Below, in pieces: positions 1,275 to 59,693 of a stretch of 64,000 bases of DNA (positions are counted from its first letter, which is position 1; every line of letters begins with the position of its first letter). The notes under the pieces were generated by a model. It was not told the DNA's origin. It made no database searches and was given only the letters and a program-made list of their open reading frames with translations. Source of the stretch: Trogon surrucura (lineage: Eukaryota > Chordata > Aves > Trogoniformes > Trogonidae). Position numbers and translations under genes: made by a program. The stretch spans positions 1,746,001 through 1,810,000 of the forward strand of contig CM036628.1 of assembly GCA_020746105.1 (NCBI GenBank), given 5' to 3'.

Positions 1275-1438
1275 ATGAGCGTACTCCTGCCCAATATGGC
1301 GGACTTCGACACGATCTATGAGCTGGAGGAGGAGGAAGAGGAGGAGGAGTCCGAACCTGTGGTGCGGAGCCAGGAGCTGCCCCGTCCCCGCGACGCGCCG
1401 GATCCCGTAGCGGTTCGGGGCGCTGGGCACATCACCGT
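1275..1438 (+). CDS. CHIC1: CHIC1 coding exon 1
   Basis: Encodes the N-terminus with the acidic Glu run and ends in GAGHIT plus two bases of a Val codon. The donor is GTAAGG at 1439. It lies inside the CpG island. A second in-frame ATG at 1296 (MADFD) sits in a strong Kozak context. Confidence 0.93.
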
Positions 1439-4400
1439 GTAAGGAGTTGGGGGGCGCGGGGGGGCTGGCACCAGGCAGCGTGACGGGCCGGTGTGGCGGG
1501 GCGGGGGCGGCCGGGCCGGGAGGGAGGGAGAGAAGGGCCGCCGCGATGCCGGCGGTAGGGTGGCCTGATGGTGGTGCCGGCAGGGCGTGAGGGCAGGAGG
1601 AGGGTTGTGCCCGGTCCCCGTGTTGCCTGTGCCCCGCGGACCCGAGCCGTGCCCGCCTTGCCGGGGGTCTGCAGCCCCGCCGCCTCTCCGCGGGCCCGGT
1701 CTGTGAGAGGAGTTTCGCTGCTTGCCCTTTTATTTATTTATTTTTTTAACGTGTTAAAAAGGGGAATTTGATGTTTTCGAGGCGACCCGAAGTCGTGAAG
1801 GAGCCGCTGAAGTTCAGGTGGCTGCTCGGTGCAGGAGCAGCTCGTCCGCCCGGACAGCCCTGGGTCTGCTGCTTTTTCCACACAGCCCCTGAGGTGAAAA
1901 GCAAACCCCGCACGACGTGAGGATGAGCAAACCCAGTCCCTGTGACCCTTCTCTGGCTCGGCTGAGCCGTGGAGCCCCCACGCTGCACTGCGGAGGAGGC
2001 ACATGGCTGTGTTGTGGTTTACCAAACTTACTTGTGAGTTTGGTTTAGGTTGGTTTTGTTATTAGGATGCAACACGAGCCAAAATGTTTACTGCTCATGT
2101 AAACAGTTGGAGCAGGAGATGAGCTGTGTGACCTCATATGTAACGTTTACTCACAGGGCTTTTCTTTGTATTCTTTCTCCTGCAAGTAGAGGTATTCATA
2201 TAACAAAATAGATCCATAAGAAGTCATCGGTTGTTACGTTCCTTTTCATGGCAGGGATTGGAATTTTCATATTGCAGAGATCCACCGAGCTTGTGTTGCT
2301 TTGGGTCTGTCTTTGGACTGCATAAAAGAATGCCCGTTTCTCTCTGTAAATAGGTGCGGTGTGATCTAGCTATCTGCAGCAAAAACACTGGGTGGGGAAG
2401 GCTCTCTCTCATCCTAAGAGAACTAATGTTGGATTTGATACTGTGCCCGTCATGTAAGTCTAAATCGGGTTTGCATTGAGCTAGTGCCAGTGGAGAGTTG
2501 CTCTGCTGCACCGCAGTGTAGTTGCGTGTGTTGGTGGGATTTCTTTCTGCCCTGACCCCAAATAGCATGTGGCCTGACTAAAGGAGGGATGTACCACAAG
2601 CAAAATTATCAGGATGCCACCTACCTATCGTTTTAGTTCTCTAGTTTTAAGCACTAAACTACACACTTACTTGCTTTGTCTGCTATGATGCTTTTTGTGT
2701 ATGAGTGGTGTTCCTTAAAGTTCCTTCTGGGCTCCAGCCTCTTTTGGGGATGGAGCAGGAGCGTGTCCAAGAATTCTGCCAACTTAGTGGTGTCTACATC
2801 AGAAGAAAGCAATACTTGTAAGTGATGCGGAAATCATGAGCTAGCATACAGGGTCCTCTAAGTATCTGAACTGAATTCCCATCCACCTTATTTTCCCTTT
2901 CTTCCACTCTTCCCAGCTTTCTTCCTGTCAGAAGTTTACCTACCTGAATGGCAGAAGGCAGCTTTTATCTGTTCATGATGTATTTTTAAATCTCCTTATA
3001 TTAAAATAGTTAGTGAGTGTTATAAATAAAATGCAAATAAACCCAGGATGCTATAGTATGGAATCTGAACCTCCTTGTTAAATGGAAGTACTGTGCTTCC
3101 TAAAGAGTTTCTGGTTAGTATGTATCAGGTCTGAAATTCTGTCGCTTCTTGATCACACGGATCCTGCTGCTTCTGAGATCAGTTGGCTTCAGAAGCAGCC
3201 TGCTCTAGTTACTGAAGGGAGGTACGTCATCGATTAAAACTTGTGTTTGTTTTCTGAACTGTCTGGAACATTGCTGATGAAATTTCTGTCCTGACAAGTC
3301 AGATGCTCTATATTAAAAAAAAAAAAAGAGAGAACTAGTTTTTTTTTAAAAGCCATTGTTTTCCTTGGTTTTTGTTTCACATGCCTTCAGTTCTTCATCT
3401 CAGACTGGATGCTTTTGGTGTGTAGAGAAGGGATAATTCTCTAATTCCAGGGTCATCTTCTGATCCAGCTTTTTATTCTCTTACAAAGCTCACAAGTCAG
3501 TAGATTCAAACTATGTATTAGTTTCTTGCGTGAGTGTTTTTATACGTGTGACCTTGTCAGCGAGCTGCTGACCCTAAGAGAGTTCTACTGCAGTATCCAA
3601 CAACGCTAGATATAAATTCCAAGAATCTTCTGAGAATTTTTAGCAGGATCTTCTTTTTTTTACTGACTATTTTGCTAACCCCTTTACCTCTGTGCATGGT
3701 GAGAGCGATCATGTCAAGTGTATTTGTTTTGTTTTACTCACAGAGAGAACGTATGTGAAAGCAGTTAGCAAAATTTATGCTCATTTTGTTCAACACTTTC
3801 ACTCTAGAAGATTCGTTGAATAAATTAACCATCAGTCTTTTTTTTTTTTCCAGAAAGCTTTTGAATTTTAGCACAGAGAAATTACTTGGACTTAGTAAAT
3901 GCCTTTTCTTTGCTTCTGAACTTCCATTTTAATGAGTTATAAACGCATTGTTCGCTGTTTCTTGCATAGCTAGTGTGCCTATGGTTGGTGTATCCAAATA
4001 TCTCAACATAGACATTTTTAGTGAAGACTGAGTCATATGTCTATCAAAACAACAGCAATAACTTTCAAAAACAGAGCAGTAAACAAACTCTAACTTGGTT
4101 ATAAATTTATGGGTTTTTTGATGTTATTTTTCCGTATCGTTAAGTCCATGTGGATAGATAGTACTGAGGTAATAAAAGAGCCATTAAACATATTCTTTCC
4201 CTTAGTATGCAGCTTGTGATCCCTGCTTAAGGCTGCACACCTCCTAGTCTTGGATACAAGTTTAACTTTTCTTAGGCCGTTATGTTTTTTTTTTTTTATT
4301 TCATTCTTGAATTCCCCCTCCCTGCCATCCGGTAGGAGTTTAATGTTTCTGAGCTATGTGGTAAATCATCATGAGAGTGATCTGTAAAACTTCTAGAGGC

Positions 4401-59618: not shown

Positions 59619-59693
59619 GACAGCCAGCATCAGGCACGCGCAGCGCGGCAGCAGAGGGGACAGGTCGTGCAGCAGCTGCCTGACAGAGGGTGT
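59230..59693 (-). CDS. LNX3: LNX3 start exon: 5'UTR part and coding exon 1 (RING)
   Basis: A pyrimidine tract and TTTCATTAG end just above 59693, so this exon probably follows a non-coding upstream exon, as in other LNX genes. Coding starts at 59618 (GTCATGGCG) and runs to 59230, encoding [20 protein letters not shown] and the rest of the RING. The donor is GTGCAG, phase 2. The coding part is 59230-59618. Confidence 0.9.

Follow-up and report, generated by a model that had tools for sequence, protein, structure and literature searches.

Intact CHIC1, FIP1L2 and LNX2b genes in a bird locus that is very probably orthologous to the core of the eutherian X-inactivation centre

Results

The window analysed here, the whole 64-kb stretch of bird DNA, contains three protein genes in the order CHIC1 (plus strand), FIP1L2 (plus strand) and LNX2b, also known as LNX3 (minus strand). 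LNX2b is convergent with FIP1L2. The first-pass annotation had reported a CHIC1, a FIP1-like and an LNX gene in this order between positions 1275 and 59693, and both the order and the ends are correct: 1275 is the start codon of CHIC1, and the LNX exon containing the start codon has its acceptor at 59693. Each joined coding sequence (543 nt for CHIC1, 1689 nt for FIP1L2 and 2043 nt for LNX2b) contains a terminal stop only, with 10 to 39 stops in the other two frames of each, and the AG/GT rule is kept at every inner junction of the three models. Among the matches listed, the nearest proteins are from birds, an eagle for LNX2b (96% identity) and a sparrow for FIP1L2 (96-97% identity). Searches of the window for tRNA genes and for long tandem arrays found neither.

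One or more of the genes could already be decaying in this bird, which would make the locus partly a pseudogene, as a weak splice site can hide in gene models built without transcripts. Nothing else was found in favour of such decay. The single terminal stops, the AG/GT dinucleotides at all inner junctions and the high identity to the eagle and sparrow proteins argue against it. We reject decay as very improbable and treat all three genes as intact.

CHIC1 consists of six coding exons between 1275 and 15297 on the plus strand and encodes a protein of 180 amino acids. A CpG scan places an island at 601..1950, covering the promoter and the first exon. Exon 1 (1275..1438) encodes a short Glu run. 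It is followed by exon 2 (6771..6825), exon 3 (12810..12965) with a cysteine-rich hydrophobic stretch, exon 4 (14251..14307), exon 5 (14540..14599) and exon 6 (15247..15297), which contains the stop. Erf4 was matched in the protein by Pfam, and CHIC1 most likely has a membrane role. The assignment to CHIC1 or CHIC2 was made by residue comparison to human sequences of both proteins. In this comparison 14 of 19 diagnostic sites are CHIC1-like, three are CHIC2-like and two are neither, and the core of the window protein is identical to CHIC1 at 127 of 134 residues and to CHIC2 at 116 of 134. The counts point to an orthologue of CHIC1 rather than CHIC2.

CHIC1 and CHIC2 are nevertheless very alike, and fip1l1, chic2 and pdgfrA are placed together with the Gsh2 ParaHox locus in the excerpts of PMC2543028 available to us (all papers cited here by PMC number were available in part). 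Both points favour a reading in which the window carries the sister block CHIC2-LNX1-FIP1L1, found near KIT/PDGFRA on human 4q12, and has been mistaken for the X-inactivation block. The CHIC1 residues at 14 of the 19 diagnostic sites argue against this, and the other two genes of the window bear on it further.

FIP1L2 comprises 16 coding exons from 21307 to 40308 on the plus strand and encodes 562 amino acids. Its promoter and first exon are covered by a CpG island at 20301..21850 (CpG scan). Coding exon 1 (21307..21400) begins with the start codon at 21307. Exons 2 (22109..22148), 3 (25029..25113), 4 (25770..25876) and 5 (26937..26995) carry a part that matches TSX, beginning in exon 2 and ending inside exon 5, at about 26961. 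The Fip1 motif, which belongs to the polyadenylation machinery and is present according to Pfam, is encoded by exons 6 (28008..28118) and 7 (30229..30359). Downstream are exons 8 (31087..31211) and 9 (32150..32255), the Pro/Gln-rich exon 10 (33078..33276), exons 11 (33705..33731), 12 (34244..34301) and 13 (34833..34888), the Arg/Glu-rich exon 14 (35789..35987), exon 15 (37886..38044) and exon 16 (40176..40308) with the stop. Two of the exons were placed by comparison with the sparrow protein.

A tree of 30 FIP1 proteins, calculated without an outgroup, separates the window protein and 20 FIP1-like proteins from nine FIP1L1-side proteins with a split at 100/100; eight of these nine rows are from the database, and the ninth is human FIP1L1. 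The gene falls outside the FIP1L1 group and is best read as an orthologue of FIP1L2. It had been described as a divergent FIP1-like gene, which was right about the family, and "divergent" should give way to a complete FIP1L2 orthologue.

LNX2b, on the minus strand, has nine coding exons between 59618 and 45384 and encodes 681 amino acids. The exon numbers assume one non-coding exon ahead, and the model then ends at exon 10. Exon 2 (59230..59693) encodes a zinc finger-RING-zinc finger region and contains the start codon at 59618, or at 59630 if placed as in the eagle protein. The NPAF motif is in exon 3 (56457..56683), whose junction with exon 4 was chosen by comparison with the eagle protein. 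PDZ1 starts in exon 4 (54861..55057) and ends in exon 5 (53156..53524), which also holds most of PDZ2, while exon 6 (50719..50898) encodes the end of PDZ2 and a linker. PDZ3 is divided between exons 7 (49531..49705) and 8 (49147..49357), and PDZ4 between exons 9 (46000..46158) and 10 (45384..45519), the last of which also encodes the C-terminus SLV and contains the stop. The RING and the four PDZ stretches, both part of the first description of the gene, were matched by Pfam. Together with the NPAF motif and the C-terminal SLV they are given as features of LNX2b in the available part of PMC7373230, and the window protein carries all of them. No CpG island of at least 300 bp is present within 59.7-64 kb, and the LNX2b promoter is therefore not located.

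A tree of 32 LNX proteins groups the window with 19 LNX2b rows at 100/100, separate from LNX1 (five rows, 100/100) and LNX2 (seven rows, 100/99), where the LNX1 rows are mammals only, the LNX2 rows are mammals and two crocodilians, bird LNX1 and LNX2 are absent and there is no outgroup. The LNX2b rows cover a shark, a chimaera, paddlefish, coelacanth, lungfish, amphibians, reptiles, birds, echidna and two marsupials. The window protein is nested among the birds, beside zebra finch at 94/83. The label LNX2b was assigned in this analysis, and many such database rows are named LNX2 or LNX2-like. A Zootoca "LNX2" was considered as the paralogue LNX2 and rejected, as the alignment shows an LNX2b isoform with a gap. 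The gene is thus placed with LNX2b as an orthologue, apart from LNX1 and LNX2. Its identification as LNX3 at first pass stands, with the name better replaced by LNX2b, the preferred one according to excerpts of PMC3162930.

The Pfam family TSX matches the window FIP1L2 with an E value of 1.1e-9 and 39.1 bits, against a cut-off of 25.8. The match covers residues 32-117, corresponding to exons 2 to 5; a FIP1L2 model lacking two exons gives TSX an E value of only 6e-4 to 7e-4. At E up to 0.01, TSX was found in 20 of 28 FIP1L2-side proteins, namely in 19 of the 20 that are not from frogs (the window included) and in one of eight frog proteins. Seven of the eight misses on this side are therefore frogs, whose FIP1L2 forms a long branch in the quick FIP1 tree described in the Discussion. 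By the same search none of 17 FIP1L1-side proteins matches TSX, eight of them from the FIP1 tree and nine picked by name and identity. The acidic run in the TSX-matching region is also present in the FIP1L1-side proteins, as judged from their consensus. Kinship to TSX that is lacking in FIP1L1 is thus indicated for the window FIP1L2, and is not general in the FIP1L2 group. For chicken, Tsx was reported as kin to three exons of Fip1l2 (PMC3164691, in excerpt).

These results leave little of the sister-block reading. The window LNX groups with LNX2b and not with LNX1, the window FIP1 groups with FIP1L2 and not with FIP1L1, and TSX matches the window protein but no FIP1L1-side protein. With both trees contradicting it, we reject the reading as CHIC2-LNX1-FIP1L1, which has next to no chance of being right, in favour of the CHIC1-FIP1L2-LNX2b block.

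Xist is reportedly derived from the protein-coding gene Lnx3, a proposal said to have been made by Duret in 2006 with the chicken locus. An Rfam search of all 64 kb (4227 families, E up to 1) returned two matches. The better is Xist_exon4 (RF01881), over the whole model (1-126) at 54932..55053 on the minus strand, with 27.7 bits and an E value of 0.092. The other, snoU82P, was taken as chance, as were three other matches in a search of 20 kb, in which Xist_exon4 has an E value of 0.029. The Xist_exon4 match lies inside LNX2b exon 4, on its coding strand, and starts 4 nt inside the acceptor. A local alignment of the Xist_exon4 consensus over the whole window scores highest, with 185, at the position of the Rfam match, compared with a maximum of 156 in 40 shuffles of the consensus over the window. 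Against LNX2b exon 4, none of 2000 shuffles reaches 185; these are single-base shuffles of the same Rfam consensus, and the test is thus not independent of the Rfam match. In the Rfam alignment some gap lengths are not divisible by three, which fits a loss of the reading frame on the Xist side.

The score of 27.7 bits is far below the RF01881 gathering score of 100, and taken alone it is weak. The likeness could be due to chance, with Xist having arisen without LNX2b, and the same Rfam search, at E up to 1, found no second Xist family in the window. A chance match would however have to fall in the right exon, on the right strand, within 4 nt of the exon start and above all shuffles. It would also have to coincide with the exon pair reported for chicken and human, as Lnx3 exon 4 of chicken pairs with XIST exon 4 in the accessible part of PMC2430539. 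Lnx3 exon 11 has also been paired in print, in the excerpts at hand, with a later Xist exon. We reject chance as highly improbable. The window exon is kin to the ancestor of Xist exon 4 and, as the score below the gathering threshold implies, is not a member of the RF01881 family.

Discussion

The window is almost certainly orthologous to the eutherian X-inactivation centre core and keeps its pre-Xist state in a bird, with CHIC1, FIP1L2 and LNX2b as intact protein genes. The first-pass annotation had arrived at the same reading and had named phylogenies as a check; with the LNX gene outside LNX1 and LNX2 and the FIP1 gene outside the FIP1L1 group, the trees did not refute it, and sequence links to both Xist exon 4 and TSX were found. 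The novelty of the locus was overstated. Its type has long been known from chicken, and the chicken locus, the gene order and the relation to Xist and Tsx appear in excerpts of PMC2430539, PMC3695352, PMC3164691 and PMC5577775. As the bird locus is already in print, the window is one more clean instance of it. Two points become sharper: the match of the TSX profile to FIP1L2 but to no FIP1L1-side protein of the 17 tested, and the age of the linkage between FIP1L2 and LNX2b.

According to PMC2430539, in the part available, Fip1l2 entered Cdx4-Chic1-Lnx3 by insertion in an amphibian ancestor. Our data point to an older association. FIP1-like proteins apart from FIP1L1 are present in sharks, chimaera, ropefish, gar, bowfin, teleosts and lungfish. 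For all 22 species found both among the best 120 of 1117 LNX rows and among the best 120 of 1329 FIP1 rows, compared by eye, the longest contigs carrying LNX2b and the FIP1-like protein are equal in size to the base; the species include two sharks and a lungfish. A matching contig size means a shared chromosome and says nothing on the adjacency of FIP1L2 and LNX2b. The contig of the FIP1L1-side protein, compared in size with that of LNX2b, matches in none of five cartilaginous fish.

A quick tree of the 22 FIP1-like proteins, eight FIP1L1-side proteins and the window splits the 22 from the eight at 100. When this tree is rooted at its midpoint, with no outgroup, two shark FIP1-like proteins fall on the FIP1L1 side of the root. 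Their orthology to FIP1L2 is spoken for by the contigs that they share with LNX2b. We therefore think it likely that FIP1L2 was already on the LNX2b chromosome in the jawed-vertebrate ancestor, within a ParaHox-linked CHIC-FIP1L-LNX block copied in the early genome duplications, and not through an amphibian insertion. Our confidence is set slightly lower than it would otherwise be, because, with no outgroup, the tree leaves the position of the root relative to the shark FIP1-like proteins open.

Excerpts of PMC5577775 describe an LNX3/USPL/WAVE1 cluster in coelacanth and spotted gar and the existence of two paralogous clusters; "fip1" is absent from the main text of that paper. In the available part of PMC2543028, the copy on the human X, which has Cdx and chic1, is treated as a ParaHox cluster, and chic2 and fip1l1 as members of the Gsh2 cluster. 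These assignments fit the descent of both blocks from one ancestor. Within the accessible portions of the literature naming Fip1l2, PMC2430539 among it, we found no revision of the amphibian insertion. The linkage of FIP1L2 and LNX2b looks older than the printed account. If this is true, the neighbourhood out of which the X-inactivation centre grew was a ParaHox one and dates back more than 400 million years.

Relatives of the three genes, published work and general background suggest how the locus changed and what its proteins do. In placental mammals, CHIC1 would have stayed coding, FIP1L2 would have decayed, with part of it becoming Tsx, and LNX2b would have decayed, with some of its exons passing into Xist. 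The region most likely has no role in X inactivation in this bird. LNX2b is most likely a RING E3 ubiquitin ligase that chooses substrates via its PDZ domains and NPAF motif, FIP1L2 an accessory factor of the Fip1 type that acts in the cleavage and polyadenylation of mRNA 3' ends, and CHIC1 a lipid-anchored membrane protein. Zebrafish Lnx2b degrades Bozozok and helps to repress cdx4, according to excerpts of PMC7373230. In fish, a member of the CDX4 block also acts on cdx4 itself, a link that is at most suggestive. There is no pointer in these data to chromosome silencing in birds. The locus offers an exon-by-exon view of the X-inactivation centre core from before two of its genes ceased to code for protein, and it allows a comparison of every lost exon with Xist and Tsx.

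Among known systems, the closest is the Cdx4-Chic1-Fip1l2-Lnx3-Rasl11c-Uspl-Wave4 region of chicken, which has the order CHIC1, FIP1L2, LNX3 in common with the window (PMC2430539, PMC3695352, both in excerpt). The same order was published for frog as well as chicken (PMC2430539, likewise). As in the window, chicken Lnx3 exon 4 is kin to Xist exon 4 and chicken Fip1l2 to Tsx, as far as the available text goes.

The sister block on human 4q12 has the order CHIC2-LNX1-FIP1L1-GSX2-PDGFRA. It contains the same three linked families, as expected of copies from early vertebrate genome duplications, but its LNX and FIP1 paralogue groups differ from those of the window.

The eutherian X-inactivation centre, CHIC1-TSX-XIST, shares CHIC1 with the window. 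Its TSX profile is kin to exons 2-5 of the window FIP1L2, and Xist exon 4 to LNX2b exon 4. Human XIST is oriented towards CHIC1. In the window, which has the order CHIC1-FIP1L2-LNX2b with LNX2b convergent, as a pre-Xist block should, LNX2b reads towards FIP1L2 and CHIC1, like eutherian XIST towards CHIC1. Unlike the eutherian centre, the window still holds FIP1L2 and LNX2b as protein-coding genes.

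Gene ends and flanking sequence

FIP1L2 (forward strand) and LNX2b (LNX3, reverse strand) converge, and a gap of about 5 kb separates their 3' ends (40309–45383). Both strands of this gap bear several poly(A) signals. It is possible that the 3' UTRs of the two genes overlap. The last FIP1L2 exon is covered by a CpG-rich stretch of 700 bp (39751–40450), a site without a known promoter. The Rfam match to snoU82P at 38556–38605 is weak (20.8 bits, E 0.57), and we attribute it to chance.

On the upstream side of LNX2b, no CpG island of at least 300 bp is present in 59700–64000, and neither the promoter nor the first non-coding exon was found within the window. 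At the other end of the locus, exon 1 of CHIC1 (1275–1438) encodes a short acidic run of eight successive Glu residues. The corresponding run of human CHIC1 is much longer.

FIP1L2 and LNX2b in other species

The database naming of LNX2/LNX2b and FIP1/FIP1L2 proteins is inconsistent. The lizard database protein P0102 belongs to LNX2b, of which it is an isoform, despite its label 'LNX2 isoform X2'. The bowfin and chimaera proteins P0145 and P0147, both labelled FIP1, fall with FIP1L2 in the tree.

The Pfam profile TSX, which matches exons 2–5 of the trogon FIP1L2, finds no match in seven (P0183, P0210, P0212–P0214, P0216 and P0218) of the eight frog FIP1L2 proteins tested. The frog proteins also sit on a long branch of the tree, and this N-terminal region seems to have changed fast in frogs.

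Of the FIP1-like matches listed (120 of 1329), none is labelled as FIP1L2 from a marsupial or a eutherian, which is not proof of absence. In the echidna, the FIP1L2 and LNX2b contigs are equal in length among the matches listed.

The published account (PMC2430539, section 13) describes Fip1l2 as an insertion in an ancestral amphibian. Among the matches listed, all 22 species common to the FIP1-like and LNX2b lists, two sharks and a lungfish included, carry FIP1L2 and LNX2b on contigs of identical length. This agreement in 22 of 22 species runs counter to the published amphibian insertion.
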